From the IMG/VR virus record IMGVR_UViG_3300036770_002448, positions 1-47,084 of that record: 47,084 nucleotides of DNA, one strand, 5' to 3'. The first letter of the stretch is position 1; every line of letters starts with the position of its first letter. Positions 7,633-42,369 of this stretch are shown here, in pieces. Below the pieces are notes generated by a model. It was given only the letters and a program-made list of their open reading frames with translations. It did not search any database and was not told the origin of the DNA. Made by a program: the position numbers and the translations under genes. The DNA is from a virus.

Positions 7633-7637
7633 CGGAG

Positions 7638-28466: not shown

Positions 28467-28475
28467 GGTCTCATC

Positions 28476-28901
28476 ATGGCTGCACCAATTCTCATGGGTC
28501 TGGCGCACGCGGGGGCAAGCTTCGCCGGGACGCTGGCGGGGGCCAAGCTCGCAGAGATGGCCGAGAAGCGACGGAAGAAGGCCGCCGCCCCGCCTCCTCC
28601 GCCCCCTCCTCCACCAGCGGCCAAGAAGGCTGAAGCTCCCGCCCCTGCTCCCGCCCCTGCTCCCGCCCCTGCTCCCGCCCCTGCTCCCGCCCCTGCTCCC
28701 AAGAGCGCCACTCGCAAGGCGTTCGAGAAAGAGTTCGCCGCCGCCCGCGAGCGTGGGGACGTTGTGTTCACCTTCCGCGGCAAAGAGTACAGCACTCGCC
28801 AAGCGGGCGAGAAGGGTCCATCACACCGCGAGAAGATGATGGACCGCGCTGCGTACCGTCAGATGGTGGAAAACATCGAGCGCAGCCGCAAGAAAGACTA
28901 G
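28476..28901 (+). CDS. Pro/Ala-stalk protein after the endolysin; spanin-like candidate
   Basis: The 141-aa protein has a mildly hydrophobic N-terminus (MAAPILMGLAHAGASFAGTL), a basic patch (EKRRKKAA), a run of nine prolines, then an Ala-Pro stalk encoded by 12-bp tandem repeats, and a basic helical C-terminus (REKMMDRAAYRQMVENIERS). A membrane-anchored Pro stalk spanning the periplasm recalls TonB or spanins, and its place after holin and endolysin is where spanins sit. No lipobox or clear strong TM helix is visible, so this is only a candidate. Its TAG stop shares CTAG with the opposing gene. Confidence 0.5.
   Translation: MAAPILMGLAHAGASFAGTLAGAKLAEMAEKRRKKAAAPPPPPPPPPAAKKAEAPAPAPAPAPAPAPAPAPAPAPKSATRKAFEKEFAAARERGDVVFTFRGKEYSTRQAGEKGPSHREKMMDRAAYRQMVENIERSRKKD
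28635..28700 (+). repeat. 12-bp tandem repeat, 5.5 copies
   Basis: The unit GCTCCCGCCCCT repeats exactly five times from 28635 to 28694, plus a half unit to 28700. It encodes the Ala-Pro stalk of the surrounding gene. Perfect identity suggests recent expansion or slippage, so stalk length may vary between relatives. Confidence 0.9.
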
Positions 28902-29509
28902 CGGTATACCAGAAATCCCAGACGCTCGCCGTCTGGGTCGGACACGAAGTTGGGGTGCGCCGTGCTCTGCCCCCACCACACTGGAATGAGCGTGGTGGCC
29001 GCATGCTTCTCGTAGTCTGGGCTGGCGCGTAGGTGCACTTCGATCACGCGGCCCCCGATGGTCTCATAGTTCACTGCGCCGTACTTCTCGGACAGTGACC
29101 TGAACAGCTTGGGCACTTCCCCCGCCGTGGGGAGAGGCAGCTTGTCCCAGCGCAGGAATCGCTGCGGCCCGCTGGAGAAGCCCTTGTAGACGCAGACTAC
29201 CCGCCCACCCCTTAGATCGATGGATAGGTGGTCGCCAGTGAAGAGCTCCATCCAGAACGTGCCGGGCTGCAGATGATCCGTGTCTACCGTTGGGAACTCA
29301 ACGATGCTGGCCCCCCGCCCCATCCCCAGCATGTTGGTGATCGGCTTGACCATATACCGGCCTGGGTGGGGTAGGTCAACCCCCGCGGGACCGCAGACAT
29401 GGCCAAAGTAGCGGGACAAGATTAGCTTATCATACACCCACAAATCCTCAACCTCCACGTTGGGCCACGCTGCATGGTCGTAGGCGGCGGGGGTGGCTTG
29501 TGTGGGCAT
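28898..29509 (-). CDS. ATP-grasp-like protein (203 aa), last gene of the heptose operon
   Basis: No named family is certain. The pattern VYDKLILSRYFGHVCGPAGV, GRYMVKPITNMLGMGRGASI, GTFWMELFTGDHLSIDL and GGRVIEVHLRASPDYEK resembles an ATP-grasp core: a Lys-containing strand with a Gly-rich loop, then a Glu/Asp pair and a terminal E-x-H/N strand. I recall similar proteins from aquatic phages. It lacks the N-terminal Rossmann part. It could be a ligase acting on a modified sugar or base. Start ATG 29509 has GAGAGG upstream. Its stop overlaps that of the rightward gene at CTAG. It lies 14 bp after gmhB. Confidence 0.45.
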   Translation of the reverse strand: MPTQATPAAYDHAAWPNVEVEDLWVYDKLILSRYFGHVCGPAGVDLPHPGRYMVKPITNMLGMGRGASIVEFPTVDTDHLQPGTFWMELFTGDHLSIDLRGGRVVCVYKGFSSGPQRFLRWDKLPLPTAGEVPKLFRSLSEKYGAVNYETIGGRVIEVHLRASPDYEKHAATTLIPVWWGQSTAHPNFVSDPDGERLGFLVYR

Positions 29510-29523
29510 AGGGCTACGGCCTC

Positions 29524-30033
29524 TCAAATGGGCGCAGGACGCGTTAGCGCCACATAGGCAGGGGGGTAGTGGCTTGGCTGGTAAAAATTGCGCCAGGAGC
29601 CGTCCTTTGGCACGCGGATGCGGCGCCCCACGCACTCCACCATGTCGGATTCCTTGTCTCCAAACATGATGCACTTGTCCAGGTCCAGATCAAGCTCTGC
29701 GGCGGCGCGGTAGAACAAACCGCAGCGCGGCTTGCGGCACGGGCACTTCATCTCCGGCGTGTGCGGGCAGAAGTAAGTCTTGTCGATGTTGACACCGTGC
29801 ACGGCCAGCAGCTCAGACAGTCTGTGCTGAACTTGGGCATACTGGTGCCGAGTCATCAGCCAGCGCCCGATACCGCTCTGGTTGGTGACGATGACCAGCT
29901 TGTACTCCTTGGCCATCAGATCTTTCAGCGCCTCTACGACGCCGTCCAGCAACACCACATCATCGGGGTTGCTGATGTACCCCACATCTTTGATGAGCGT
30001 ACCGTCTCGGTCAAGAAACGCTGCTACGTTCAC
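29524..30033 (-). CDS. gmhB: D-glycero-D-manno-heptose-1,7-bisphosphate 7-phosphatase
   Basis: HAD-superfamily phosphatase of 169 aa. Motif I is FLDRDGTLIK (nucleophile D8, acid/base D10), motif II VTNQSGIGR, a Lys/Arg-containing CRKPRCG, and the acidic motif FGDKESDM. A zinc-binding loop C89-P-H91...C97-P-C99 is diagnostic of the GmhB/histidinol-phosphatase group and distinguishes it from generic HADs. It removes the 7-phosphate from heptose-1,7-bisphosphate, the step between HldA and HldC. GTG 30033 is preceded by GAGGAG and overlaps hldC by 23 bp. Confidence 0.82.
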   Translation of the reverse strand: MNVAAFLDRDGTLIKDVGYISNPDDVVLLDGVVEALKDLMAKEYKLVIVTNQSGIGRWLMTRHQYAQVQHRLSELLAVHGVNIDKTYFCPHTPEMKCPCRKPRCGLFYRAAAELDLDLDKCIMFGDKESDMVECVGRRIRVPKDGSWRNFYQPSHYPPAYVALTRPAPI

Positions 30034-30433
30034 GGATACTCCTCACGATGTCGGTTGTACTGATATCCGGCAGGCGTGGCAACAGCGTGATGATTATACC
30101 TCGCTTGGTCAGCCACTGGCCCTCTTCAGAGTTCAGCACATCGCATGAAGTGTCCTTGACGTACAAGTCAGGGAACCTGCCGGATTCCTCCCACTTGCGC
30201 ACGGGGTTGGGCCCGTCAAACGGCACGACGCGGGACACGCAGCGCAGGGCGGACAGTATCTTCACCCGATGCTGCAGGGGCACGATGGGGCGGGTGCTGC
30301 CCTTCAGCGCCCGCACGCTCTCGTCGCTGTTGATGAACACCACGACGCTGCCGAACGTGGCAGCCTGCTCCAGAAACGTCACATGCCCCGCGTGCAGCAG
30401 ATCGAAGCACCCATTCGTCCACACGGTCTTCAC
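30011..30433 (-). CDS. hldC: D-glycero-beta-D-manno-heptose 1-phosphate nucleotidyltransferase
   Basis: A 140-aa cytidylyltransferase-fold protein matching the C-terminal (RfaE domain II) half of HldE. TVWTNGCFDLLHAGHVTFLE contains the HxGH nucleotide-binding motif at residues 14-17; INSDESVRALKGSTRPIVPL, RPIVPLQHRVKILSAL and the late ISTTDIVRSIRER (ISTT-like motif) agree. It would make ADP-heptose from heptose-1-phosphate and ATP; the nucleotide specificity cannot be proven here. In E. coli it is fused to the kinase; here the two are separate genes with gmhA between, as HldA/HldC in other proteobacteria. GTG 30433 overlaps the gmhA stop (GTGA) after GGAGAAG. Confidence 0.8.
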   Translation of the reverse strand: MKTVWTNGCFDLLHAGHVTFLEQAATFGSVVVFINSDESVRALKGSTRPIVPLQHRVKILSALRCVSRVVPFDGPNPVRKWEESGRFPDLYVKDTSCDVLNSEEGQWLTKRGIIITLLPRLPDISTTDIVRSIRERSSVS

Positions 30434-30999
30434 TTGTCTTCTCCGATCAGTGTCTCGTCCAGCATCTCGCAGATGGCGTGCGCGACGATCATGTGGCACT
30501 CTTGAATCCTGGCGGTCTCCTCGCCCCCCACGGCCACGGTGATGTGAGAGTACGCCCCCAGCGGGGATGGCTTGCTGCCCGTGAACGAGTAGACCGTGCC
30601 CCGCACTTCTTCACGCGCCCAGCGGGCGGCGCTCACCACGTTGGCGCTGCGCCCGCTCGTGCTGATGCACCACAGAATATCTTCCGGCTGCATCAGTGCT
30701 TGCACCTGCCGTGAGAAGACATGGTTGAAATCGTAGTCATTGCCCACGGCAGTGAGGATGGAGGTATCCACCGTGAGCGCGATGGCGGGGTATCCAACAC
30801 GCTCACGCTGGTAGCGCCCCACCAGCTCCGCGGCGATGTGCTGGCAGTCTGCTGCGCTGCCGCCATTCCCGCACAGCAGCACCTTCCCGCCGTTCAGCAG
30901 GCAGGCGGAGATGCCATTCACCATCTCTTCGATTCGTGGCTTCATGCTGCGGATCGTACCCAGCGCCTTCACATGACGGTCGAGTATGCCTTCAAGCAT
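30430..30999 (-). CDS. gmhA: Sedoheptulose-7-phosphate isomerase
   Basis: A 189-aa SIS-domain isomerase, close to the ~192 aa of E. coli GmhA. CGNGGSAADCQHIAAELVGR holds the substrate loop and zinc ligands H54 and E58. WCISTSGRSANVV is the second phosphosugar loop, and RIQECHMIVAHAICEM supplies Q166 and H174 with the family's spacing. It converts the host pentose-phosphate intermediate sedoheptulose-7-phosphate into D-glycero-D-manno-heptose-7-phosphate, the first committed step. Start ATG 30999 has AAGGAG nine bases upstream. It overlaps hldA by 31 bp. Confidence 0.88.
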   Translation of the reverse strand: MLEGILDRHVKALGTIRSMKPRIEEMVNGISACLLNGGKVLLCGNGGSAADCQHIAAELVGRYQRERVGYPAIALTVDTSILTAVGNDYDFNHVFSRQVQALMQPEDILWCISTSGRSANVVSAARWAREEVRGTVYSFTGSKPSPLGAYSHITVAVGGEETARIQECHMIVAHAICEMLDETLIGEDK

Positions 31000-31838
31000 T
31001 GGTCCAGCTCCTTGCGGGTAATGATAGCAGTGCCCAGCTTGGACACTGCGATAGCTCCGGCCGCGCTGCCCCACTGGGCGGCGGTGGAGAACGTTTCTCC
31101 CTCGCTCAGCGCGACGGCCATCGCGGCGAGGTAGCTGTCGCCCGCGCCGGTAGGGTCAACGCACTGGACTGGGATGGGTTTGATCTGCTCGTCCTCCAGC
31201 CCGAAGCCAGAGAACTTGGTAGACCCAGCGGCCCCCGCAGTCTGAATGATGTACTCCACATCCAGCTGGCGAGCCAGATGGCGCGGATTGCCGGTGACGG
31301 CCGTCACCTCGCTGTAGTTGCCCTTGATGACGTCTGCGTGGGCGTAGCGTTCCCAGTTGGTGCCCTTGGGGTCGACGATGGTGATTTTGTTGCGGGCGTG
31401 GGCAAGCATGTCCTTCACGTTGCGCAGAGCACCCTTGCCATAGTCGCTGAAGACGATAACGTCGAAGGCGTTGAACATGTCAAGGAACCGCTCCCCCACC
31501 AGATCGCTCTCGGCTTCTGTGAGGAAGTAGTCGTCATCGATGCGGGCCCGCATCACCCCGTCGACGAACACGCGCGTCTTAATGGTGGTCTGCGACACGG
31601 GGATGATGCTGGCAATCATCCCAGGTGGCAGATGGGATCCAGAGGCCAGACAGGTGAGCAGCGTCACGTCTCCCCCCATAGCCTGGACATTGGCCGCGAC
31701 GTTGGCCGCGCCACCGGGGTTCTTCCTCTGGGACAAGAGGTCGTAGATGACGATTGGTGCTTCTGGGCTGATGCGGCTAACCTCGCAGTTGAGCGAGATG
31801 TCGCGCATGCTGTCACCAACTACGAGTATCTTTCTCAT
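30969..31838 (-). CDS. hldA: D-glycero-beta-D-manno-heptose-7-phosphate kinase
   Basis: A 289-aa PfkB/ribokinase-family enzyme matching the RfaE domain I kinase. KILVVGDSMRDISLNCEVSR and SPEAPIVIYDLL are typical HldE openings, NPGGAANVAANVQAMGG is the substrate Gly-Gly region, and DPTGAGDSYLAAM carries the catalytic Asp (234) and anion hole. It phosphorylates heptose-7-phosphate at C1. The N-terminal extension is a little shorter than in bacterial HldE. Start ATG 31838 has AAGGAGAT upstream. Confidence 0.85.
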   Translation of the reverse strand: MRKILVVGDSMRDISLNCEVSRISPEAPIVIYDLLSQRKNPGGAANVAANVQAMGGDVTLLTCLASGSHLPPGMIASIIPVSQTTIKTRVFVDGVMRARIDDDYFLTEAESDLVGERFLDMFNAFDVIVFSDYGKGALRNVKDMLAHARNKITIVDPKGTNWERYAHADVIKGNYSEVTAVTGNPRHLARQLDVEYIIQTAGAAGSTKFSGFGLEDEQIKPIPVQCVDPTGAGDSYLAAMAVALSEGETFSTAAQWGSAAGAIAVSKLGTAIITRKELDQCLKAYSTVM

Positions 31839-32031
31839 ACACCAAATCTCCTTTGCTGTCCAGCCGCTGCACAGCCAGATGGTTTGCGATCGTGGGGTGG
31901 GCCAGCTTGGCAGCCTCGATCGCGTCTTTCCTGGAGCGTGCGTGCACCACTCCAATCTTTGATTCTCGAATGTGTACGCTCCCCTGTGGCGGCACATGTC
32001 GATACAGATAGAACACTTGATAGGGTTTCAT
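31813..32031 (-). CDS. Small hypothetical protein (72 aa) leading the heptose genes
   Basis: Unrecognised. MKPYQVFYLYRHVPPQG is followed by a segment with VVHARSRKDAIEAAKLAHP, a mixed alpha/beta pattern used in several small phage proteins that end with a domain of residues such as TIANHLAVQRLDSKG. It overlaps hldA by 26 bp, so it is coupled to it. The ribosome site is weak. It could be a leader that couples or regulates translation of the operon, but this is speculation. Confidence 0.5.
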   Translation of the reverse strand: MKPYQVFYLYRHVPPQGSVHIRESKIGVVHARSRKDAIEAAKLAHPTIANHLAVQRLDSKGDLVYEKDTRSW

Positions 32032-32066
32032 GAGACTATTTGCGTTGCTGCACCCTGCCAGTATGC

Positions 32067-32109
32067 CGGGGCGCGGGGTCTCTGCAATAGGGGCAAACCC
32101 CGCACCCCG
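32067..32109 (-). promoter_or_regulatory. Hairpin in the leader of the heptose operon
   Basis: Arms 32067-32079 and 32097-32109 pair over 13 positions with one mismatch that becomes a G-U pair only in the leftward transcript. The loop is 17 nt. No U-tract follows, so it is not a standard terminator. It fills most of the 32032-32118 gap and may process, stabilise or attenuate the downstream transcript. Confidence 0.45.
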
Positions 32110-32118
32110 ACAAGGGTA

Positions 32119-32559
32119 CTACCCCTGGTTCACGTACCCCTGGGGCTTGGCGCAGTCGTGAATGTCGTAGGCCTCCCCTGCCGACAAGGTGCGTACGGTC
32201 ACGCCACAGTGACGGCACTTGTAGTGATTGGTGTTGTCACCAAAGAAGCCCTCCAACTGCCAGTCCTCGTTGAAGTCCACGCGCAGGTCTGGTACTGGGG
32301 TATTCTGCACCACGGGGTCGGCCCGCGTGTCGTACTTGCGGGCAACCTCGATGTACTTCTCCAGGAAGTGCTTGGCCTTCTCCAGATCCTGCAGCCTCCG
32401 TGCATGCGTGTCGTGCTTGTCCTTCCACCGCATCACGTACTTGGTGATCTGGTATTGGAAAGGATCCCACTGGTAGTGCACGGCCAGATCCCAGTGCTGC
32501 ATGTTTTTGCCGATGGCGCGATAGTGGTCTCCCGCCACTTGCTTGTCGTTGGCGCTCAT
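32119..32559 (-). CDS. DUF3310 protein with C-terminal zinc motif
   Basis: The N-terminal ~75 residues match the DUF3310 pattern of small phage proteins: QVAGDHYRAIGKNMQHWDLA, DPFQYQITKYVMRWKDKHD and LQDLEKAKHFLEKYIEVARK. The C-terminal part has HYKCRHCGVTV and DIHDCAK, a likely Cys/His zinc site not part of the core domain. DUF3310 proteins occur in nucleotide-metabolism regions of phages; no function is established to my knowledge. ATG 32559 overlaps the previous stop (ATGA). Confidence 0.68.
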   Translation of the reverse strand: MSANDKQVAGDHYRAIGKNMQHWDLAVHYQWDPFQYQITKYVMRWKDKHDTHARRLQDLEKAKHFLEKYIEVARKYDTRADPVVQNTPVPDLRVDFNEDWQLEGFFGDNTNHYKCRHCGVTVRTLSAGEAYDIHDCAKPQGYVNQG

Positions 32560-32942
32560 TCGATGATCCTCCAGTCTTCTGACAGCATATCAGTCTGAGA
32601 TGCGAGCCACGGCACGCGGGCCCCCGGGGTGTTCTGCGCGTTGTCGGGATACGACATGAAGATGTACGGCAGCGTCATCTTGCTGTGCGCGTCGGGCACT
32701 TGCAGCTCCAGCCACAGACCCTTGCCGTTCCACCCCACCCGTTGGACCTTCAGGCCCTTCTTCAGCGCGTCGATAGCCAGCCCAAAGGTCATCCCATTGC
32801 ACGGGCGGTAGGCGGCTTCGAACGCTTTCTTGGGAGACCATGACGCATATCCATCCTCGTAGCGCACGAAGTAGCCCTGTCCCTTACCCTCCACGTTGGC
32901 TGGTTCTGCGCTGATGATCTTGGTTCCTATGTACTTCTTCAT
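32556..32942 (-). CDS. DUF2829 / Tad2-like protein (candidate anti-Thoeris)
   Basis: Residues 51-128 match DUF2829: MTFGLAIDALKKGLKVQRVG, WNGKGLWLEL, TLPYIFMSY and VPWLASQTDMLSEDW. Thoeris anti-defence protein 2 (Tad2) belongs to this domain family and works by sequestering the cyclic ADP-ribose-type signal of the Thoeris defence system. Residues 1-50 (KKYIGTKIISAEPANV, YEDGYASWSPKKAFEAAYRP) form an additional N-terminal domain often seen with this family. Whether this member binds such a signal cannot be read from the sequence. ATG 32942 overlaps the previous stop, with GGAGGAGG upstream. Confidence 0.7.
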   Translation of the reverse strand: MKKYIGTKIISAEPANVEGKGQGYFVRYEDGYASWSPKKAFEAAYRPCNGMTFGLAIDALKKGLKVQRVGWNGKGLWLELQVPDAHSKMTLPYIFMSYPDNAQNTPGARVPWLASQTDMLSEDWRIIE

Positions 32943-33319
32943 TCCCCCTCCTCCGCAAGACGGCTGCGCAGCTCGTAGCCCATCAGCGGCCAGATCTTGG
33001 TCACGGCGTTGGCCCGGGCGACCTTGCGGCCGATCTCTGGGTCGAAGTTCTCCGGGCTGGCACATGCCGACTCGCCCGTGACGGTGAAGCCGTTGCGCAG
33101 GGTCAACACGCAGAAGGTGAGCAGATGAAGAGGAGAGTCACCAACGACACCCGCGTCGTCGATGCTTTCGCCGTGCTCATCGATGCCGTTTCCGAGAACT
33201 CCTTGCGCGGCCGTGAAGTAGTGCTCGCCGACGATGTTCGCCTCGATGTCGGCCGGCGTGATGCGCGGGGCGGTCAGGCCCTTGGCCTGGATCTCTTGTT
33301 CGATGATGTCGTCAGTCAT
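32939..33319 (-). CDS. N4 gp49 / Sf6 gp66 family protein
   Basis: The 126-aa protein contains the family signature: IVGEHYFTAAQGV, then LLTFCVLTLRNGFTVTGESA, FDPEIGRKVARANAVTKIWP and the end LMGYELRSRLAEE. The family is widespread in phage accessory regions with no established biochemical role. Start ATG 33319 has AAGGAGGA upstream and overlaps the stop of the thymidylate synthase homologue (ATGA). Confidence 0.72.
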   Translation of the reverse strand: MTDDIIEQEIQAKGLTAPRITPADIEANIVGEHYFTAAQGVLGNGIDEHGESIDDAGVVGDSPLHLLTFCVLTLRNGFTVTGESACASPENFDPEIGRKVARANAVTKIWPLMGYELRSRLAEEGE

Positions 33320-34275
33320 TCCTTGGTCCTCCTTTGGCACCATTGAGCAAAGGCCGCACCCCAATCGCTGTTCGGGATGCTCAGCCAGTTCACCTTCCCC
33401 CCGTACTTACGGGCAAGATAGGCATCGCGTAGCTGCACCGCAACGTCACGCATGAAGTGCGTGCGCATGCTGGTGAGCCCGTCAACCAGGGCCACGCAGT
33501 CGTCGAGAAGGTACTCGTACTTCTCGTTGCCCTGCAGGATCGGGTGGGGGGATACCCCAGTCTCGTAGAGGTCTTGCGGCTCCGTGGGCGGGTTGTCCAG
33601 GAAGTCTCGCACCATCGGGTTGCTTGAGTAGGCGTGCCAGTTGTTGCTGAACTGCCTATACACCCCCACGGGCGCACCGACGGCGTGGGCAATCACCTCC
33701 TGCAGAATGCTGAAGTGCACCACGTTCGCACCGTAGCAGCCCCACAAGATGTCGTTGCTGCGGCAGCACACCGTCATGTTGAGCCGCCCGCCACGTAGGT
33801 CGAAGTAGATGTGCGTGTTGCACGGCCTGTCGCGCCACTCACCCGTCAGATCACTCTCAGGATCCCACATGCCGATCACGGCCTGCCGCGTGTCGGGGTT
33901 GCGGCGCAGCACATTGATGACCTCGTCCACCTGATCAATTGGCCAGTTGTTCCTCCATCGCCACCCATACGCCCCGTGCATGCGACCATCGGGCTCTGCG
34001 TAATTGGAGATGTTGGAGCTGAACTGCTTCAGCCATCCAACGTCTTGCTCTCCCGCCAGCATCCACAACGACTCCATGAGATGGAACACATGGTTCGCAT
34101 CTCGGCGGGCGTTGAACAGCACGCGCTGGCGGGGGTTGAGGTACGTGGTGAGCACCGGGCCGGGGGCCACCAGCACCTCTCCGTTCCGGCTGGTTGAGTG
34201 CTCCCCCGCGCTGCGGAGGTAGAACCACGCGTCTACGAACGCATGGTTCACGTTCTTTGCAGTGATGGAAAACAT
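33316..34275 (-). CDS. Thymidylate synthase homologue, probable dUMP/dNMP hydroxymethylase
   Basis: A 319-aa thymidylate-synthase-fold protein. PCNTHIYFDLRGGRLNMTV holds the catalytic Cys152; CCRSNDILWG has the phosphate-binding Arg and conserved Asp; YGANVVHFSILQEVIAHAVG has N184 where thymidylate synthase has the Asn that reads uracil, while T4 dCMP hydroxymethylase has Asp. This favours dUMP as substrate. The WGCYGAN block differs from the classic GLGVPFN, as in phage hydroxymethylase-type members. With the hypermodification genes just upstream, the likely product is hydroxymethyl-dUMP; ordinary dTMP synthesis is the alternative. ATG 34275 follows AGGAG and overlaps the MazG-like stop (TAATG). 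Confidence 0.78.
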   Translation of the reverse strand: MFSITAKNVNHAFVDAWFYLRSAGEHSTSRNGEVLVAPGPVLTTYLNPRQRVLFNARRDANHVFHLMESLWMLAGEQDVGWLKQFSSNISNYAEPDGRMHGAYGWRWRNNWPIDQVDEVINVLRRNPDTRQAVIGMWDPESDLTGEWRDRPCNTHIYFDLRGGRLNMTVCCRSNDILWGCYGANVVHFSILQEVIAHAVGAPVGVYRQFSNNWHAYSSNPMVRDFLDNPPTEPQDLYETGVSPHPILQGNEKYEYLLDDCVALVDGLTSMRTHFMRDVAVQLRDAYLARKYGGKVNWLSIPNSDWGAAFAQWCQRRTKE

Positions 34276-34658
34276 TACTTCGTTTCTCCTGTGATGAACA
34301 GCTCTCGGATCTTGGGCTCGGGCTTCCAGTAGCCAGGACCCTTCTGCACCTTGCCGTTGATGATGATGGCCCTGCCGTCCGGCCCCAGCTTGGACATGTT
34401 GCTGTCCATGATGATGGACAGCACTTTCTCGATGGGGATGCCGTGCCGGTAGGCCTCGCTGGTGCAGTAGACGATGATGTCTCCCAGCCAGTCTGCCAGA
34501 TCCGCAATGTCCAGGATTGCGTCTGCCTCTTGCATCTCCTCGTAGAGGATCTCCTTGAAGCGGCGGATGCGCTGGCGAGACTCAATCGCTGCTTCCGTGG
34601 GTTGCGGCAGGCCGAAGGCCGTCTGAAACTCACGAACGCGCTGAAAGAAATGGGTCAT
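34275..34658 (-). CDS. MazG-like nucleotide pyrophosphohydrolase (PRA-PH fold)
   Basis: The 127-aa all-alpha protein begins FFQRVREFQTAFGLPQP and has the metal-site pattern RRFKEILYEEMQEADAI (ExxE-type) followed by IADLADWLGDIIVYC (ExxD-type partner) and EKVLSIIMDSNMSKLGPDG, characteristic of all-alpha NTP pyrophosphatases. It hydrolyses a (d)NTP to the monophosphate. Next to a nucleotide hydroxymethylase, its plausible use is to remove a canonical dNTP or feed the monophosphate pool. GAGGAA precedes ATG 34658; it overlaps the next upstream gene by 29 bp. Confidence 0.75.
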   Translation of the reverse strand: MTHFFQRVREFQTAFGLPQPTEAAIESRQRIRRFKEILYEEMQEADAILDIADLADWLGDIIVYCTSEAYRHGIPIEKVLSIIMDSNMSKLGPDGRAIIINGKVQKGPGYWKPEPKIRELFITGETK

Positions 34659-35457
34659 ACTTGTTCCTCACATGTCCGTTGCTGTACTTCACTTTGCACC
34701 ACTTGCTGAACTCACACAAGCAGTTCTGGAAGTCCTGGTTGCTGATTCTGGGAATCTCCGGGTTGATGAATGGCTCGGTCACCTCTCTGCACTGGTCGAG
34801 CATCATCCAGTAGTTGGTGGCAGTCACGCCGTAGGGGGCGCGGAAGAAGAACCAGCTCAACCCCCGTAGACTGCCAGGGCCGGGGGCAGACCATGTCCAC
34901 CAGTCCGGGGCGTACTGCAGGGGATGGCCTTCTGTGTTCTTCATGTCCGCGATGATCTGGGCGGACAGAAAGCTGCCCAGCCCATCGATCTGCGACAGCC
35001 AGAAGTGCGCATCCTCCAGGCTCTTGAAGCTGGCTGATTGTAGCTGGGCCTTCTCCACGCGCTGCAGCACAAGGAGGATGTAGTCCAGCTTTACCATCTT
35101 CCTACCACAAGTGCTGATGGTGTACGCACTGGTGAACACCTTGGCCCCCGTGGCGGCTCGCTGCTTCAGCATCTCCACGGCACGCTCTGGCGTCCCTGCC
35201 AGGGTGATCTCTGCCAGACTGTCCGGCCAGTTGATCATCCTCGCGAGCACGAAACGCCACACCGGATCCGTAAAGTAGTTCCAGTTGGCGCGGATCCAGC
35301 GCGTGACGCGGTCATCCTCACGGTGCACGTTGCAGAAGCGCACGGTGTTGAAGATCTGATCACTGCTCCACGGGGGCGGCTGTCCAGACTCCTTGCGGAG
35401 CTTGATGGCGTGCCGCTCATTGATCCAGTAGCCGAGCTGATCTGACAGCCAGTCCAT
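34630..35457 (-). CDS. DNA base hypermodification protein (HMUDK helical / aGPT-PPlase-like)
   Basis: The 275-aa helical protein has the motif set of phage base-hypermodification proteins annotated as 5-hmdU kinase helical domain or alpha-glutamyl/putrescinyl thymine pyrophosphorylase clades: GYWINERHAIKLRKESGQPP, PWSSDQIFNTVRFCNV, REDDRVTRWIRANW, and a helix-hairpin-helix-like LSQIDGLGSFLSAQIIADM. Such enzymes act on hydroxymethyl-pyrimidines already in DNA, either activating or replacing the hydroxyl. No P-loop kinase domain is attached here. It sits between a TET-associated-type glycosyltransferase and a nucleotide hydroxymethylase. Start ATG 35457, preceded by GAAGAAGG, overlaps the glycosyltransferase by 41 bp. 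Confidence 0.68.
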   Translation of the reverse strand: MDWLSDQLGYWINERHAIKLRKESGQPPPWSSDQIFNTVRFCNVHREDDRVTRWIRANWNYFTDPVWRFVLARMINWPDSLAEITLAGTPERAVEMLKQRAATGAKVFTSAYTISTCGRKMVKLDYILLVLQRVEKAQLQSASFKSLEDAHFWLSQIDGLGSFLSAQIIADMKNTEGHPLQYAPDWWTWSAPGPGSLRGLSWFFFRAPYGVTATNYWMMLDQCREVTEPFINPEIPRISNQDFQNCLCEFSKWCKVKYSNGHVRNKYDPFLSARS

Positions 35458-36208
35458 GCTGCAACGCCTTCTTCCATTGGATGATGACATCGGTGCGCGT
35501 GGCACCGCCCCAGGCCGTCTTCGTGGTTTTCTCCACAGTCTTGACGAACTGCGGATAACGGCTCTGCAGCTTTTCAGCCGCTGCACGGTGCATCTCCAAC
35601 GTGCGGTACGTGGAAGCACCGCCAGCCGTACCGCTCCCCCGTTGGTTCTGGACGTACGAGTTGAGGATGCAGTTGGTGTACCCCCGCGTGAGCAGATGCA
35701 GCGTGGCTTCAAAGTCGTCCATCACTGTACTGTTGCGGAAGTCTACCCCCTCCTTGAAGAAGATACTGCGCTGGTAGCCGATGACGCGTGGGGCCCGTGT
35801 GCAGCTCAGCAAGCTATCAGTGTTCCTGTTGGCCCCCTCTCGCGTGGCGATGCCAACGTGTGCGTAGCCGCACAGAAGGACCTCCACCCCCTCCAGCATA
35901 CCCCGTATTTCTCCCGTGTTCGGCTCACGAAAGCGCGTGGGATCGTCCGTACGGCGCACCGCGAAGGTAAGATCATCATCCATCATGAGCACACGCTCTT
36001 CTGGCGCTTGCTCCATGATCCACTGCCGCGTGGCAGCGATGCCGGAGACGTCCTCCGGAGGTGTGATGATGCTGCTGTGTACTCCGTGATAATCTGCCAG
36101 CTCGTTTTGCGGAATAACGAGCGTTATGGGGTACGGCGACTCTTCTCGCAACTCGTTCAGTGTGTACTGAAGTCGTGGACGCCGCATTGTTGGGATGAAT
36201 ATGTGCAT
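35417..36208 (-). CDS. TET-associated-type glycosyltransferase (TAGT), DNA base modification
   Basis: A 263-aa GT-A-fold protein. The N-terminus MHIFIPTMRRPRLQYTLNEL, VTLVIP-like PITLVIPQNELADYHG, and DVSGIAATRQWIMEQ lead to MMDDDLTF, whose DDD at 77-79 is the metal/donor-binding motif. This order (IP-T-x-R, GIxxTRxWI, MDDD) matches phage glycosyltransferases described next to TET/JBP enzymes and other base-modification genes, which put sugar on hydroxymethyl-bases in DNA. The donor sugar is unknown; the phage's own nucleotide-heptose is a candidate. ATG 36208 follows AGGAG and a strong hairpin. Confidence 0.7.
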   Translation of the reverse strand: MHIFIPTMRRPRLQYTLNELREESPYPITLVIPQNELADYHGVHSSIITPPEDVSGIAATRQWIMEQAPEERVLMMDDDLTFAVRRTDDPTRFREPNTGEIRGMLEGVEVLLCGYAHVGIATREGANRNTDSLLSCTRAPRVIGYQRSIFFKEGVDFRNSTVMDDFEATLHLLTRGYTNCILNSYVQNQRGSGTAGGASTYRTLEMHRAAAEKLQSRYPQFVKTVEKTTKTAWGGATRTDVIIQWKKALQHGLAVRSARLLDQ

Positions 36209-36219
36209 CGAAGACTCCT

Positions 36220-36240
36220 GCGGCCCCACGTTGGGGCCGC
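36220..36240 (-). promoter_or_regulatory. Perfect 9-bp-stem hairpin before the hypermodification genes
   Basis: GCGGCCCCA and TGGGGCCGC pair around a CGT loop, immediately upstream of the AGGAG site of the glycosyltransferase gene. In the leftward transcript no U-run follows. It could be a processing or stability element, or a weak terminator after the 36269-37231 gene. Confidence 0.5.
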
Positions 36241-36268
36241 ATTGAAGTTGAGGGGATGGGGGCGGTGC

Positions 36269-37231
36269 TCAGTCGATGGTCTCTTCCACGACCTCGGCGT
36301 CCACCGGGTTGGCCTCCGGGGCGGGGGCCTCGGCCCGACGGGTCTTGCGCGGCTTCGTCTCCTTGGCCGGCTTCTCGGCCTTGGGTGCACGCTCCTTCTT
36401 CACCACCGCCTTGGGGTCGTACCCCTCGATGGAGATGAAGCCGTGCGCCGAGTCGTACGCCATGTCGGGGGAGGTGCCGCCGGCGTCGAGGAACTCCTTC
36501 TGGGTCATGCCCGTGCGGTACAGGGCGAACCGCTTCTCGGCCGCGCAGCCGGGACGCTTGGGGTTGTGGTCGACCAGCACGGTGATCTTGGCGTCCGGCG
36601 ACACGCCACGCAGACCACGCGGCGTGTTCGCTGCTCGGGTGGCGGTGGCGGCTCCGGTGGAGGCTTCGGTGGCTTGGGTCACTTCAGCAGCGGCTTGCGC
36701 CTCCATCTCGGGGGTGGCGCCTTCCTTCTTCTTGCGAGCCATGATGGCTGTTCCTTCCTCTATCCACGTGGGCGCGGGGCGGCGCGTCCACTTACTTTGC
36801 TCTACCTTCCGCCCCAGGTAGTATCTGCGATAGGCAATGATGCTATTGCCCGGAACCTTGAACTCGTCTGGCATAGCCTGCGGGGGCTCCGACCAGATGG
36901 GTGGCATTCCTGCCGTTTCTCCTATGCCAGCGGCGCGGTACAGCACATCTAGGCTCGCATGTACCCTGCCGCTGTATCTGTACGAGTACTCCTCCAGAAG
37001 TGCCTTGCCATGCTCGGCCAGCCACCTGAAGTTGTGAATTCCATCTCCTGCCCACAGAACGCTGGGGTGGCGGGGATGCGTGGGCCGGTACAGCTCTGGC
37101 TTCCACACTCCCCAGCGATCGCAAACTGTGCTGAGTATCTGCGCAGTTTCTAGGATCATCTTCACAACATGCTTGTCGTGAAGAGACTGCGCAGCTACCA
37201 CGGGATCATCATCAACGAAAAATACGTTCAC
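36269..37231 (-). CDS. Pyrimidine-dimer-glycosylase-like protein fused to a phage Lys/Ala-rich domain
   Basis: The N-terminal ~160 residues (VDDDPVVAAQSLHDKHVVKM, ILETAQILSTV, YRPTHPRHPSVLWAG, IIAYRRYYLGRKVEQSKW) match phage proteins related to pyrimidine dimer DNA glycosylase (endonuclease V-like), a repair enzyme for UV damage. The C-terminal ~157 residues from MARKKKEGATPEMEAQAA carry ITVLVDHNPKRPGCAAEKRF, ALYRTGMTQKEFLDAGG and a Pro/Lys/Glu tail, seen elsewhere as a stand-alone phage protein. An internal ATG (36742) with GGAAGGA upstream could start that second protein separately. GTG 37231 is the main start; a sigma70-like promoter lies just upstream. Confidence 0.6.
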   Translation of the reverse strand: MNVFFVDDDPVVAAQSLHDKHVVKMILETAQILSTVCDRWGVWKPELYRPTHPRHPSVLWAGDGIHNFRWLAEHGKALLEEYSYRYSGRVHASLDVLYRAAGIGETAGMPPIWSEPPQAMPDEFKVPGNSIIAYRRYYLGRKVEQSKWTRRPAPTWIEEGTAIMARKKKEGATPEMEAQAAAEVTQATEASTGAATATRAANTPRGLRGVSPDAKITVLVDHNPKRPGCAAEKRFALYRTGMTQKEFLDAGGTSPDMAYDSAHGFISIEGYDPKAVVKKERAPKAEKPAKETKPRKTRRAEAPAPEANPVDAEVVEETID

Positions 37232-37251
37232 GTGCTTTCTTTCTATGTACC

Positions 37252-37279
37252 ATTATGCTAGAGACTCCGTCATTTGCAA
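37252..37279 (-). promoter_or_regulatory. Sigma70-like promoter for the leftward modification operon
   Basis: On the leftward strand TTGCAA (37279-37274) and CATAAT (37257-37252) are 16 bp apart, a 4/6 and 5/6 match to the -35 and -10 consensus. The region is A+T-rich in an otherwise GC-rich genome and lies in the 89-bp gap between helicase and 36269-37231. It would drive the glycosylase-like, hypermodification and perhaps heptose genes. Confidence 0.55.
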
Positions 37280-37320
37280 ATTGTATTTTGCAATGAAAGA
37301 TTCTGCCTAATAGGTTTAGC

Positions 37321-38715
37321 CTATCGACCCTTCATCTCTCGCAGGATGGATAGAAACGCACTCTGGCTGGAATCTTTGGCGTTGAGCACAGAAAGTACAC
37401 GTTCGTCAACTGTGTCTTTCGCGATGATGCGGTACACGATCACATGCTTGGACGTCTGGCCCTGCCGCCACACTCGGTCAATGGTCTGGCTGTAGTCCTG
37501 CAGATTCCATGTGAGACCAAACATGATGACGTTGCGGCACTTGTTCTGTAATCCGTCAATGCCCAGGCTGATGCTGGAGAACTGCCCCATGCCAATCTGC
37601 ACCAGACCGCTGGAGAACAGGGTGATGTTCTCAGAGTCCTGCTTGGCACTGCCCCCCGTCAGCAGCACCGCCCGTGGGAAGGCTTTGCGCAGCTTCTCTA
37701 GGTCTGGCTTGAACTCGTACACGACGAGCGCACTCTCACCGCTGAGCTGCTCCAGCAAGTCCTTCAGAGCATCGATCTTGGCGTCGTGTATGTCTTCCCA
37801 CTCACGCTCTTCCGAGTTGGTGAACAGGCACCCATTGGCAATCTGCCGGCACTTGCTGGTCGCCACGGCGGCATTGTTGGCGACCACAAGCTGAGAATCC
37901 AGCGTCGCCAGCATGTGCTGCTCCATGCTGTCGTACTGGCTGCGGGCGTTGGGGGGTAGGTCGACCAGTATGTCGTTGAACGTGAGCTCTGGCATTTCCA
38001 GGTTGCCCTCTCGCTCCAGCACCAGCGTGAGAGGCTCTATCTTCCTGGCTATCTCTTCTGCCGCCCACGGGTGGGGGGCAAGATCGTAGCCCATGTAGTC
38101 CGTAGGGTAGAAGTATTTCGTCTTGTAGTGCGTCACGTACCTGCCCAGCGACGACCCCTCGTCCAGAATGTATACCTGCCCGAACAAATCCATCAACCCA
38201 TTGGGGGTGAACGTGCCGGTGAGGATGTACCGGCGCTTGAAGTTCTTTATGAATTTGCGCAGGCGCTTGAAGCGCTCAGTGCTGGTGTTCTTGAACTTTG
38301 TGCTCTCATCCACAACAAGGACGTCGAAGTGCTCCTTGAGCCACTCCTCCCACTCAGGCGTGCACAGCCACTCCAGCCCTTCGGGGTTGATGCAGTAGAT
38401 GTCTGCCGAGAGGTCTCGTAGGTTCTGCACGCGGTTCTTGCCGTGCAGTACATTCACTTTGAAGTCTGCAAACTGTGCCCAGCTATTCTTCTGCTTGGGC
38501 CAGACGTTGTAGACGACGCGCAGCGGTGCAATCACCAGCGTGCGCTTGATGAGCCGCTTATCCTTTAGGATCTTGATTATCGCGTAGGTTATCGTCGTCT
38601 TGCCGAGACCCGGTCTCAGAAGGAATCCTGCGCACGCCTGAGATATCCCCATGCGCACGGCCTGCTCTTGATAAGAGCGCGGCTTCCAAGAAGCCAATTG
38701 CTGCGTTGACATCAT
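37321..38715 (-). CDS. SNF2-like superfamily 2 helicase
   Basis: The 464-aa protein has the full helicase motif set: Q-like PRSYQEQAVRMGI, Walker A RPGLGKTT at 35-42, TLVIAPLRVVYNVWPKQ (Ia), Walker B VVDEST at ~135-140, motif III ILTGTFTPNG, and C-lobe motifs with IDGLQNKCRNVIMFGL and QTIDRVWRQGQTSKHV. This is the SNF2 type common in phage replication regions, acting as a dsDNA translocase in replication or recombination. ATG 38715 has GGAG seven bases upstream; an in-frame TTG at 38718 is rejected. The first 158 nt overlap the VRR-NUC gene. Confidence 0.82.
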   Translation of the reverse strand: MMSTQQLASWKPRSYQEQAVRMGISQACAGFLLRPGLGKTTITYAIIKILKDKRLIKRTLVIAPLRVVYNVWPKQKNSWAQFADFKVNVLHGKNRVQNLRDLSADIYCINPEGLEWLCTPEWEEWLKEHFDVLVVDESTKFKNTSTERFKRLRKFIKNFKRRYILTGTFTPNGLMDLFGQVYILDEGSSLGRYVTHYKTKYFYPTDYMGYDLAPHPWAAEEIARKIEPLTLVLEREGNLEMPELTFNDILVDLPPNARSQYDSMEQHMLATLDSQLVVANNAAVATSKCRQIANGCLFTNSEEREWEDIHDAKIDALKDLLEQLSGESALVVYEFKPDLEKLRKAFPRAVLLTGGSAKQDSENITLFSSGLVQIGMGQFSSISLGIDGLQNKCRNVIMFGLTWNLQDYSQTIDRVWRQGQTSKHVIVYRIIAKDTVDERVLSVLNAKDSSQSAFLSILREMKGR

Positions 38716-38953
38716 CAAACACTCCTGCAGGGAACCCCTGCTCGTGGAGTTCCGCGATGCGCACCAGTTGTAGAGGTCTGGGCTTTTCTCCCGAACGTTT
38801 GAACTCTACAAATGCCACGCACCCACGGAACAAGAATAGATCATCTGGATACCCCGCTGTTCCAAACGGGGTGAGCTTCAGCACAGTCATGCCCCGAGCC
38901 CGCGCCCAGGTCTTCACTCTCCCTTCTATGTAAGATTCACGAACGGGGGGCAT
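38558..38953 (-). CDS. VRR-NUC domain nuclease
   Basis: The 131-aa PD-(D/E)XK-type protein has the VRR-NUC pattern: YIEGRVKTWARARGMTVLKL, GTAGYPDDLFLFRG (catalytic Asp) and VAFVEFKRSGEKPRPLQL (E-x-K). Such nucleases cut branched or flap DNA and often lie beside SNF2 helicases in phages. Residues after ~92 (LSRAGRAHGDISGVRRIPSE and on) are charged, atypical and encoded within the helicase overlap, so they may be an overprinted tail. Start ATG 38953. Confidence 0.75.
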   Translation of the reverse strand: MPPVRESYIEGRVKTWARARGMTVLKLTPFGTAGYPDDLFLFRGCVAFVEFKRSGEKPRPLQLVRIAELHEQGFPAGVFDDVNAAIGFLEAALLSRAGRAHGDISGVRRIPSETGSRQDDDNLRDNQDPKG

Positions 38954-38959
38954 GCTGCT

Positions 38960-39673
38960 CTAATTGCCGAATTGGCAAGGGCCCCCGCTGGACTTGGAGT
39001 AGTCGCACCAGCGGCAGTGGATGCCCGGGCGCGGGGCGCACATTTCGTCACGCTGCATCGTGGTGATGCGGTGCGTCCACATCTCTTTGAGCTTGTTGTA
39101 GCCGTTCTCTCCCACCAGGGTGATGCGCTGCGGGGGTGCCGTGTCTTCCAGATAGTAGGTGGTGACGAGCACTTCGTCTGCCAGCCACGCCCGCATGCCG
39201 AACATCGCGTAGAGCTTGCGCTGGTCGGCATGCGTTTCCTTGGGCTTGCCGCTCTTCCACTCGCCGATGTGCAGCACCCCCTTGTCCGTGTAGTGCGGCT
39301 TGGTGAAGCGCACCGCATCCAGCACAGCGACGCATGCCGCGTACTTGCTCTGCGGAGAGCACAGATACCATTCGGTATCGAACGCCAGCTTCTTCTCCGT
39401 GTACCGATCCCCATTGGGGTGGTCGCGGTACGCGTCTAGAATGGGGATGTACTTGGGGTGGATGTCGGGGTGCAACACGCTGGCGTCCGCCCCCTTGATA
39501 TACTTCTCCACCGTGTCGTGCATCTCCAGCCCACGGGCGGCGGCGGGGCCGGGGGGCTTGCGCGGCAGGCGCAGGCGGGACTGGAAGTTCCACTTCGCCG
39601 GGCATTGGTTGTAGGACTCCCACTGGCTGAAACTCCAGCGGAACACGGGCTTCACATTCAGATCTTCACTCAT
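38960..39673 (-). CDS. PD-(D/E)XK nuclease, Cas4/RecB-like
   Basis: The 237-aa protein has the Cas4-like order: first Cys region SFSQWESYNQCPAKW, RGLEMHDTVEKYI (His of motif), catalytic FDTEWYL, VAVLDAVRF (Asp) and GVLHIGEWKSGKPK (E-x-K), then a QRKLYAMFGMRAW motif and a terminal Cys cluster (CRWCDYSKSSGGPC). The four Cys could hold an iron-sulfur cluster. It is likely a 5'-3' exonuclease of replication or recombination. ATG 39673 overlaps the polymerase stop by 8 nt. Confidence 0.78.
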   Translation of the reverse strand: MSEDLNVKPVFRWSFSQWESYNQCPAKWNFQSRLRLPRKPPGPAAARGLEMHDTVEKYIKGADASVLHPDIHPKYIPILDAYRDHPNGDRYTEKKLAFDTEWYLCSPQSKYAACVAVLDAVRFTKPHYTDKGVLHIGEWKSGKPKETHADQRKLYAMFGMRAWLADEVLVTTYYLEDTAPPQRITLVGENGYNKLKEMWTHRITTMQRDEMCAPRPGIHCRWCDYSKSSGGPCQFGN

Positions 39674-41474
39674 CTTTGTACCCCTCGATGTCTGCCCAGT
39701 TGGGCCCCATGTACCCCTCGGACAAGAAGGGTACGTCAAACCTGTCTGCGTTCATGGCCAGCCGCAGACGGCGCATGGCCCCCGTATGCGTCTCAGCCGG
39801 TGCAGAGATGTTCACTTCATCGTGAACAGCCGCCAGCAGGAACTCGTCTGCGTGGCGCTCTCTGTTCCAGTCGATGAGAGCTTGCTTGGTCTGATCCGCG
39901 GCGCTGCCCTGGATCAGATAGTTCAGCAGCTTGTAACTGAGATCCCGCTGGGGGTGAGGTTCACGGTAATAGACTCGCCCACCCCAAGTTCGTATGTACT
40001 GACCACGCCGCCCACGGTTGCGGAGATCACCACTGAGCTCTCGGATCTCCGGCAGAGCTGCATAGTAGGCGTCTCGCACGCGCTTGCCCTCTTCTTCAGG
40101 TACTCCCAGGGCAAGACTAAGGTTTGGAATTCCTCTGCCATACATGATTCCAAAGCCTGTGATCTTCACGTACTTGCGGGGCATGTCAATGTCCAGCAAG
40201 GCCTTGATGATCTTCTGCACGGCAACGTGCGGATCCGTCGTTGGGTCTATGCGGAACGCATCGTACAGCCGCCCTTCGGCAAAGTGGGCCATGATGCGCA
40301 TTTCCTGTGCGCTGAAGTCACGCTTCAGCCACACATGCCGCTCCTCAGGCAGCAGATACCGCCGCATGATCATGGGCGCGGGCAGCCCCTCAGGTATCAC
40401 AAGGGACTCGAACTCGTTGGGCGGGTTCTGGAGGTTGGGGTCGCGGCAGCTCATCCGCCCCGTGCGCGTGCCAGAGATGTCGCCATCTGCGCCCCGGTCG
40501 CCACGCACTTGGTTCCACTGCGGGTGCAGCCGCCCCTCTTCTCGCTGGGCTTGTCGTAGCCACGGTTCGGCAAATGTCCCAAGGCACGTAGACAGCACGC
40601 CCCGGTAGGCAAGGTAGGCCAGCAGCGCGGGGTCTTTGACGCGTCCTACAAGGTTTTTGCGGCTCGTAGACCGGCGCCCGGTAGGCGTAAGTACCCAGGT
40701 AGTAACCTGCCCAGCACGCTCAAGCGCATTGGCCAGCTCTTCGTCGCTGTCAATGTTGAAGTCGCCAAGTACGCTGTGGATGTACGCCTCCGCCCTGTTC
40801 TTGGCATCCGTGTACAACTTGATGTCTGCGGCCAAGCGCTCCATGTCCAGGCGGACGCCACGGCGCGTGCTCTCGGCCAGTATGGGCATCAGCCACTGTT
40901 CGCGCCTGTACGGCTCAAGCATCCCTATCTCCAGGATGCGGGGGTACAGCTTGTCGAAGAGGGCGCGTGTTCTGTCAGTGTCACCAATGGCGTAGCGGCC
41001 CACGAGCTCGCCAGGGGCTTCGCAGATGTAAGCGCCCCAGTCGCTCTTCTTGGCACCGGGCACGTTGGACAGCACCCACATCATCACATCATCACGCTCT
41101 TCTGGGGGCATGCCCAGCACGCGCTCGGCGCTGGGCTTGAGGCTGAAGTTGTCAGCGTACGGGTCTGTGAGGAATAGAAGGTAGCGCGTGTCGTGCACCT
41201 TCAGAGGATCTTTCTGCACGTAGAAGAACTCTTGAGCGAGGATGGCAGCTTCGAACTGCGCGTTGTGCGCGAGGTAGCCTTCCTTGTCTTCGTGCAGTGA
41301 GGACAGCAGCGCGTGCCGTCCGTATTCGTAGGAGCAGTTGTTGCCCGTGGGATGCCCCCAGGCGTAGTAGACAGACTCTTGGTTCTCCTTCTTGATTGCA
41401 ACGCCTACAGACTTGGGAGCCCGGTAGCTTGGGCTTCCAGAGATTGCTTTTGTTTCAAAGTCAATCGTGAGCAC
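39666..41474 (-). CDS. Family A DNA polymerase with 3'-5' exonuclease
   Basis: The 602-aa replicative polymerase. The proofreading domain is intact: DFE at 5-7, HNAQFE around 70-75, and Y161xxxD165. The polymerase has motif A RDFSAQEMRIM (D386), motif B R433xxxK437xxxF441xxxY445 (FGIMYG) and motif C VHDEVN (D552, E553). A Phe at 441, rather than Tyr, predicts normal discrimination against ddNTPs. There is no 5' nuclease domain, as in T7-like polymerases. The start is GTG 41474 with GAGGAG upstream, just downstream of a terminator-like hairpin. Confidence 0.88.
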   Translation of the reverse strand: MLTIDFETKAISGSPSYRAPKSVGVAIKKENQESVYYAWGHPTGNNCSYEYGRHALLSSLHEDKEGYLAHNAQFEAAILAQEFFYVQKDPLKVHDTRYLLFLTDPYADNFSLKPSAERVLGMPPEERDDVMMWVLSNVPGAKKSDWGAYICEAPGELVGRYAIGDTDRTRALFDKLYPRILEIGMLEPYRREQWLMPILAESTRRGVRLDMERLAADIKLYTDAKNRAEAYIHSVLGDFNIDSDEELANALERAGQVTTWVLTPTGRRSTSRKNLVGRVKDPALLAYLAYRGVLSTCLGTFAEPWLRQAQREEGRLHPQWNQVRGDRGADGDISGTRTGRMSCRDPNLQNPPNEFESLVIPEGLPAPMIMRRYLLPEERHVWLKRDFSAQEMRIMAHFAEGRLYDAFRIDPTTDPHVAVQKIIKALLDIDMPRKYVKITGFGIMYGRGIPNLSLALGVPEEEGKRVRDAYYAALPEIRELSGDLRNRGRRGQYIRTWGGRVYYREPHPQRDLSYKLLNYLIQGSAADQTKQALIDWNRERHADEFLLAAVHDEVNISAPAETHTGAMRRLRLAMNADRFDVPFLSEGYMGPNWADIEGYKDE

Positions 41475-41488
41475 TAGAACTCCTCATG

Positions 41489-41544
41489 AAAAAGCCCCCG
41501 CCCGCGAAGTAGCAACTGCGGTTCTCGGAGATTGCGGGCGGGGG
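41489..41544 (-). terminator. Intrinsic-terminator-like hairpin upstream of the polymerase gene
   Basis: Arms 41495-41505 and 41534-41544 form a perfect 11-bp GC stem around 28 nt; on the leftward strand the stem is followed by C and five T (41493-41489). It would end or attenuate leftward transcripts 15 bases before the polymerase start codon. Confidence 0.6.
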
Positions 41545-41600
41545 TGGAGCATGCCTCAAAGCGGGGCCACAGGGAGGAGAGCCCCTAGGCTACCTCCAAA

Positions 41601-42368: not shown

Positions 42369-42369
42369 T

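Follow-up and report, generated by a model that had tools for sequence, protein, structure and literature searches.

Which base does a phage modify in its DNA, with which group, and where does that group come from? These questions are raised by a gene cassette in IMGVR_UViG_3300036770_002448, a single virus record from IMG/VR whose 47,084 bases, the whole stretch of DNA analysed here, are referred to as the window. Since an SU10-type portal gene is present, the virus appears to be a podovirus-like phage. On the minus strand (positions 36208–33316), four intact, overlapping open reading frames (ORFs) code for a TET-associated glycosyltransferase (TAGT), an HMUDK_hel protein, a MazG-like protein, and a thymidylate synthase homologue. 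We propose, with a probability of roughly 0.5, that these genes form a cassette for glycosylated 5-hydroxymethyluracil DNA, with ADP-heptose made by the phage itself as the likely donor. Within this proposal, glycosylation of 5-hydroxymethyldeoxyuridine (5-hmdU) in DNA is quite probable, and for heptose as the donor sugar the odds are about even.

The genes overlap by 41 bases (TAGT/HMUDK_hel), 29 bases (HMUDK_hel/MazG-like) and 1 base (MazG-like/synthase), and they belong to a tightly packed gene run on the minus strand which extends to position 29524; from the TAGT gene to that of GmhB most neighbours overlap, and no gap exceeds 87 bases. TAGT (PF20691, E 2.9e-17, 63.7 bits against a curated cut-off of 27.5), HMUDK_hel (PF18723, E 2.4e-38, 132.6 bits against 25) and the synthase (PF00303, E 1.2e-22, 80.8 bits against 24.3; also phrog_5131, E 2e-95) all pass their Pfam cut-offs. 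The MazG-like protein matches the nucleotide pyrophosphohydrolases of phrog_671 (E 2.4e-21), though its Pfam match to PRA-PH (E 0.03) falls under the cut-off. The order of the cassette genes is kept in relatives at roughly 40–65% protein identity, arguing against a chance arrangement. Families, residues and conserved order thus bear out an earlier sequence-only reading, which had described the four overlapping genes, the MazG-like one among them, as a DNA hypermodification cassette and had suggested TAGT and HMUDK_hel profiles as a check. Its direction was right, but it was incomplete: it closed the cassette at 33316, whereas the run continues with a four-gene ADP-heptose operon, and it overlooked that HMUDK_hel occurs here without a 5-hmdU DNA kinase.

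Equivalents of the Escherichia coli residues C146, R166, D169, H207 and Y209 are retained in all of the 96 synthases aligned, including that of the window. At the position of E. coli N177, which reads uracil or cytosine, the window synthase has Asn, as do ThyA and the enzyme of Pseudomonas phage M6; MilA, a CMP hydroxymethylase, has Asp, and in the T4-type dCMP hydroxymethylase of Mineola a Tyr aligns here, beside an Asp. The nearest phage relatives of the window synthase, at about 40–42% identity, are those of Bordetella phage FP1, Rhodoferax phage P26218, and Pseudomonas phages M6/YuA, and it has a PCN motif in common with M6-type phage hydroxymethylases, in place of the PCH of ThyA. This similarity and the PCN motif predict formation of 5-hmdUMP rather than dTMP. 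M6 DNA contains 5-(2-aminoethyl)deoxyuridine (PMC6449724). Because the synthase is of the Asn type, its nearest relatives are of the M6 type, and Asn occupies the reading position in 95 of the 96 synthases of HMUDK_hel loci, 5-hydroxymethyluracil is the base likely to be expected in the phage DNA. The TET/JBP dioxygenase profile PF12851 had no match in the record, in a search in which 14 control genomes were equally silent. The Asn noted in the sequence-only reading is real, and hydroxymethylation at the nucleotide level, as it had predicted, is supported as far as the sequence can indicate. Glycosylation of a uracil-derived base, which it had called unusual, gains indirect support as well. 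The gene combination is not a one-off: dozens of IMG/VR contigs have TAGT and HMUDK_hel together with a synthase of the Asn type, and so does a cultured phage, LuckyBarnes of Brevibacterium.

The part played by HMUDK_hel is suggested by the genes that accompany it. An HMUDK_hel alignment search gave the best 80 loci from at least 568 relatives, to which loci from other searches were added; after 13 repeats of the same contig had been dropped, 99 HMUDK_hel loci from IMG/VR, the window included, were compared (locus numbers are prefixed L), one of them, L002, being truncated. The loci were picked by similarity to the window HMUDK_hel, TAGT or heptose proteins or to the family GTB49, and the counts of partners, defined as genes within 7 kb of HMUDK_hel, are not unbiased frequencies. 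A synthase is present in 98 of the 99 loci. The partner is a TAGT in 75 loci, a GTB49 protein in 13, a P-loop protein in five, and both of the latter in three; no partner was recognized in L002 and in L048 and L066, which contain a GT4-like gene (weak, sub-threshold Pfam matches). Of four P-loop genes scanned, those of L090 and L088 match the 5-hmdU DNA kinase family PF18748 (HMUDK_HMUD1) above, and those of L074 and L081 below, the cut-off. No TAGT was found in any of the 14 records with another partner. Conversely, PF18748 had no match in the window record, nor in seven of seven glycosyltransferase-type records in a search of the same kind that matched the controls M6 and L090, both above the cut-off, and L074. 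A candidate P-loop kinase at 45026–45427 gave a weak match (E 0.0078) and reads as no kinase. The amino acid:DNA transferase profile PF18724 likewise went unmatched in the record, in a search whose controls gave no match either; in hmmscan, gp14 of P26218 matches it at 5.7e-48. On the HMUDK_hel tree (71 of 98 sequences used) there are 10 or more changes of partner, and in the window the glycosyltransferase occupies the spot held by a 5-hmdU-kinase-type P-loop gene in relatives.

Irrespective of its partner, HMUDK_hel remains conserved, with 29 invariant columns in an alignment of eight rows, and 19 invariant and about 31 near-invariant columns in one of 58 rows. Nearly all of the top 50 structural matches of its AF2 model (pLDDT 94.4) are DNA glycosylases or the queuine (salvage) enzyme, which we take to be related to DNA glycosylases, with Z-scores of 5.6–8.9; such a fold would suit base flipping, at a level of evidence below proof. 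Because its partner enzyme is exchangeable among relatives, HMUDK_hel is most simply read as a protein that binds or presents 5-hmdU to an exchangeable enzyme, which would phosphorylate or glycosylate the base.

Two kinds of glycosyltransferase serve as frequent partners. In TAGT, D77–D79 and D165, presumably the metal-binding acidic motif of GT-A enzymes and a catalytic acidic residue, respectively, are invariant in an eight-row alignment, and no glycosyltransferase other than TAGT was detected among the 30 window proteins scanned with Pfam. Three GTB49 proteins scanned had no Pfam match. The model of the L015 protein (pLDDT 91.4), however, shows a GT-B fold that aligns with T4 beta-glucosyltransferase (1j39) at Z 20.1 over 291 residues; all of the nine best structural matches are to the beta- or the alpha-glucosyltransferase of T4 (the latter at Z 18.5), which act on hydroxymethylated DNA, and two of the alpha-glucosyltransferase entries are structures on DNA with an HMU base. 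On the strength of this model, a T4-like GT-B fold is assigned to GTB49 of the relatives L015, L023 and L096, a family absent from the window.

Downstream of the synthase gene lie three ORFs, unassigned or DUF3310-like, which overlap one another, and then a small ORF. The overlapping genes that follow code for homologues of the HldE kinase domain, GmhA, the HldE adenylyltransferase domain, and GmhB. The alignments to the E. coli proteins cover most of their length, and the motifs GNGGS, DRDGT, TGAGD and HAGH are retained. Best NCBIfam matches are TIGR02198 for the kinase (E 1.1e-52), TIGR02199 for the adenylyltransferase (E 7.7e-33), TIGR00441 for GmhA (E 1.1e-50), and TIGR00213 for GmhB (E 2.1e-38); GmhA also matches PF13580 (E 2.3e-24), and GmhB matches TIGR01656 above its cut-off. 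The four genes thereby make up the whole predicted pathway to ADP-D-glycero-beta-D-manno-heptose. Profiles of the epimerase HldD and of GT9 heptosyltransferases had no match in the record.

A search with the window GmhA retrieved four viral relatives, all of which carry the whole cassette, and on the HMUDK_hel tree the phages with heptose genes group in a single clade (eight rows, support 99). Their partner is a TAGT in the window, L013, L017 and L022, and the T4-like GT-B protein in L015, L023 and L096; the heptose operon thus outlived the swap of one glycosyltransferase fold for another, which fits a shared donor. GmhA and the adenylyltransferase were found in the same nine of 44 records searched whole, all nine already known as carriers. 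Heptose genes located elsewhere in heptose-negative relatives were sought and found in none of 35 whole records, many of which are fragments; L002 and two others are also without GmhA. One-to-one co-evolution of glycosyltransferase type and heptose operon is contradicted by the trees, as both TAGT lineages and the GT-B type occur with heptose genes. A further contig, L120, has the four heptose genes and ends before the cassette. Relatives of the HldE adenylyltransferase at lower identity (L122–L194) were excluded from the cassette counts; they come from larger viruses. Many of these have an HldK-HldN pair, the stretches covered contain no cassette, and L132 has FkbM/GT-like neighbours by eye. 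We regard them as a different viral use of heptose.

Taken together, the proposed route would start with conversion of dUMP to 5-hmdUMP by the synthase homologue, while the MazG-like protein may remove competing dTTP or dUTP. The polymerase would incorporate 5-hmdU for part or all of thymine, HMUDK_hel would recognize and present it in DNA, and TAGT, in place of the 5-hmdU-kinase-type P-loop protein, would glycosylate the hydroxymethyl group. GmhA, the HldE-type kinase, GmhB and the HldE-type adenylyltransferase would provide ADP-D-glycero-beta-D-manno-heptose from sedoheptulose 7-phosphate as the likely donor, so that the product would be heptosyl-oxymethyl-dU in a DNA shielded from nucleases. 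Position, overlap, conserved order and the lack of another matching glycosyltransferase make heptose on DNA the best single guess, at about even odds. That the DNA of this clade as a whole bears heptose on 5-hmdU via a phage ADP-heptose pathway, with HMUDK_hel as a general presenter whose partners (kinase, GT-A, T4-like GT-B, GT4-like) have been swapped, is put forward more tentatively, at slightly less than even odds.

Several observations weigh against this proposal. The best Foldseek match of HMUDK_hel has an E-value of 0.17, with none below 0.001, and Z-scores below about 13 are weak for a helical protein. One locus with HMUDK_hel and TAGT, L007, has an Asp-type, cytosine-like synthase, the one exception among the 96 compared. 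All four heptose proteins score under the NCBIfam equivalog cut-offs, as expected of distant phage members, and for this reason their specificities are termed predicted. On the TAGT tree (57 of 86 sequences after removal of near-copies; long branches reported), the TAGTs of heptose-positive phages split into two lineages, one of the window and L022 and one of L013 and L017, both nested among heptose-negative ones; a heptose preference would therefore need two shifts or a relaxed donor choice, and the tree does not tie TAGT type to donor. L024, inside the heptose clade, keeps only a GmhB-like gene, beside an L013-type TAGT. Moreover, T6-type TAGTs use glucose (PMC13216743). A more ordinary donor would accommodate some of this: glucose or another host UDP-sugar would be placed on 5-hmdU, and the heptose operon would be a separate auxiliary, e.g., for altering host lipopolysaccharide (LPS) or a virion glycan. 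The unsorted TAGT lineages, the loss of three of the four heptose genes from L024, the scarcity of GmhA among the records searched whole, the larger viruses with HldK and HldN homologues, and the fact that most loci with TAGT and HMUDK_hel lack heptose genes all favour such a donor, which we hold to be a real but lesser possibility. It is opposed by the lack of a GT9-type match, which leaves TAGT as the only candidate transferase among the window proteins scanned, and by the location of the heptose genes directly after the synthase in a DNA-metabolism run, a place they also take in every heptose-positive family relative that reaches that far.

The role assigned to HMUDK_hel may be doubted on the grounds that its Pfam name comes from the kinase, a match to which is absent here, and that no activity of its own is demonstrated here. 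It might then have transferase activity itself, or be a degenerate remnant, with a modification other than glycosyl-5-hmdU, e.g., plain 5-hmdU with TAGT acting elsewhere. Conservation of the protein alongside every type of partner makes this improbable, as does the presence of a glycosyltransferase without a P-loop partner in 90 of the 99 loci (two of them sub-threshold GT4) and of both in three more. Ordinary nucleotide metabolism, i.e., a plain thymidylate synthase, a housekeeping MazG protein, unrelated sugar genes and canonical DNA, would agree with the retention of all checked thymidylate synthase residues save those variable in the family; however, the closest relatives of the synthase are phage hydroxymethylases such as that of M6, it has PCN and not PCH, and almost all relatives have it in combination with TAGT and HMUDK_hel, so that this explanation appears very unlikely. 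Heptosylated 5-hmdU thus remains the preferred reading; the features on which it is based are compiled in Table 1.

Table 1. Genes of the minus-strand run and their positions in the window
Feature	Position	Strand	Evidence
TAGT glycosyltransferase, GT-A type, 263 aa	35417..36208	-	PF20691; MxDDD and EDF/DDF motifs conserved
HMUDK_hel protein, 275 aa; predicted 5-hmdU-presenting partner, DNA-glycosylase-like fold	34630..35457	-	PF18723; AF2 model; fold matches
MazG-like nucleotide pyrophosphohydrolase, 127 aa	34275..34658	-	phrog_671; Pfam PRA-PH weak
Thymidylate synthase homologue, predicted dUMP hydroxymethylase, 319 aa	33316..34275	-	PF00303; phrog_5131; catalytic residues; Asn
ORF without assignment, within gene run	32939..33319	-	4-base overlap at either side
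ORF without assignment, within gene run	32556..32942	-	4-base overlap at either side
DUF3310-like ORF	32119..32559	-	PHROG 5839, E 1.6e-18; Pfam DUF3310 weak, E 0.047
Small ORF, 72 aa	31813..32031	-	Resembles by eye an 82–115 aa ORF (cluster 32) at the same place in L013–L018
Predicted D-glycero-D-manno-heptose 7-phosphate kinase (HldE kinase half), 289 aa	30969..31838	-	TIGR02198; 31% to E. coli HldE
Predicted sedoheptulose 7-phosphate isomerase GmhA, 189 aa	30430..30999	-	PF13580; TIGR00441; 41% to E. coli GmhA
Predicted heptose 1-phosphate adenylyltransferase (HldE nucleotidyltransferase half), 140 aa	30011..30433	-	TIGR02199; HAGH motif; 37% to E. coli HldE
Predicted heptose 1,7-bisphosphate 7-phosphatase GmhB, 169 aa	29524..30033	-	TIGR00213; TIGR01656; 37% to E. 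coli GmhB
ORF, phrog_3577 (function unknown), last of run, 14 bases past GmhB	28898..29509	-	phrog_3577, E 4.9e-32

Just upstream of the TAGT gene, an ORF at 36269–37231 (minus strand), present in many relatives, matches the pyrimidine dimer DNA glycosylase family Pyr_excise (PF03013) with its N-terminus (25.5 bits, cut-off 23) and has a long low-complexity tail. A megablast search of positions 28000–42400 against a phage collection gave no match, so the phage has no close cultured relative in that collection; a scan of genome contigs gave five contigs of metagenome-assembled genomes and no clear host. Some relatives have additional genes. L008 codes for a 579 aa fusion protein (3324–5063) of TAGT and a radical SAM/SPASM domain, and its neighbours include HMUDK_hel and a synthase of the Asn type. 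L009–L012 contain two TAGT-like genes less than 2 kb apart, the second matched via a radical-SAM/SPASM protein. An APS-kinase-like gene comes next and HMUDK_hel is missing; this is possibly another modification cluster. In L066, an FkbM-type methyltransferase gene (7623–8294; PF05050, 7.2e-10) directly precedes the GT4-like gene of the HMUDK_hel cassette and could serve sugar methylation. A conserved ORF (cluster 54) downstream of the synthase in L031, L032 and L037–L039 resembles by eye a 2-oxoglutarate/Fe(II) oxygenase.

Among known systems, Pseudomonas phages M6/YuA, Bordetella phage FP1 and Pseudanabaena phage Pam3 resemble the window in that genes of a uracil-type hydroxymethylase and HMUDK_hel adjoin or nearly so. 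However, a 5-hmdU DNA kinase or NTPase gene lies beside HMUDK_hel in these phages, whereas in the window a glycosyltransferase is present and the kinase profile finds no match; the TAGT profile had no match in M6, FP1 and Pam3. In M6 (NC_007809), the kinase gp054 adjoins HMUDK_hel (gp055). M6 gp054 and P26218 gp15 are annotated as terminase small subunits, yet their best Pfam match is HMUDK_HMUD1 (7.7e-18, above the cut-off, and 2.5e-5, below it, respectively), and the label is likely a misannotation. In LuckyBarnes, as in the window, genes for a synthase, TAGT (here two) and HMUDK_hel share one run; unlike the window, its 12.8 kb examined contain no genes annotated for heptose. Its synthase is a dCMP hydroxymethylase according to its authors (PMC6588365), yet has Asn at the reading position in our alignment.

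With T-even glucosylation (alpha- and beta-glucosyltransferase, T6 TAGT) the window shares the TAGT family and the sequence of pyrimidine hydroxymethylation and sugar transfer (PMC13216743, PMC13390438). The T6 TAGT adds a second glucose to alpha-glucosylated hydroxymethylcytosine (PMC13216743), whereas the window TAGT occurs without either T4 glucosyltransferase and with a uracil-type synthase. In the arabinosyl-hydroxy-dC system of Mosigvirus (RB69/NP), a sugar-activation gene cluster beside a putative DNA arabinosyltransferase (PMC13390438) parallels a phage-made donor; cytosine, arabinose and another sugar pathway set it apart. Bacillus phage SP-15 has a sugar on a uracil-derived DNA base (PMC5977210), as proposed here. 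It differs from the window, as does eukaryotic base J, in base chemistry or enzymes. Base J is likewise a uracil-derived DNA base with a sugar, and we know of no heptose in either system.

All four activities of the E. coli ADP-heptose pathway (GmhA, HldE, GmhB) are matched in the window by homology (31–41% identity), with HldE split into two genes and the HldD and GT9 steps unmatched in the record. In bacteria, the product of this pathway feeds LPS. Searches of an open-access library found nothing on point that ties heptose or ADP-heptose to phage DNA modification. The locus unites a uracil-type hydroxymethylase, HMUDK_hel and a glycosyltransferase, joined by a phage heptose-activation operon.

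TAGTs without either T4 enzyme occur in 288 of 753 phage genomes and have been termed potential novel transferases, and such solitary TAGTs are treated as an open question in the same study (PMC13216743). For them, the locus suggests 5-hmdU in DNA as a substrate that can be tested and HMUDK_hel as a partner, and one clade adds a candidate donor. The pattern of exchangeable partners accounts for HMUDK_hel genes without a kinase and is a route to further modifications in uncultured phages. If the proposal is true, heptose would join the sugars found on DNA as a new one, and a pathway known from LPS would gain a new role.

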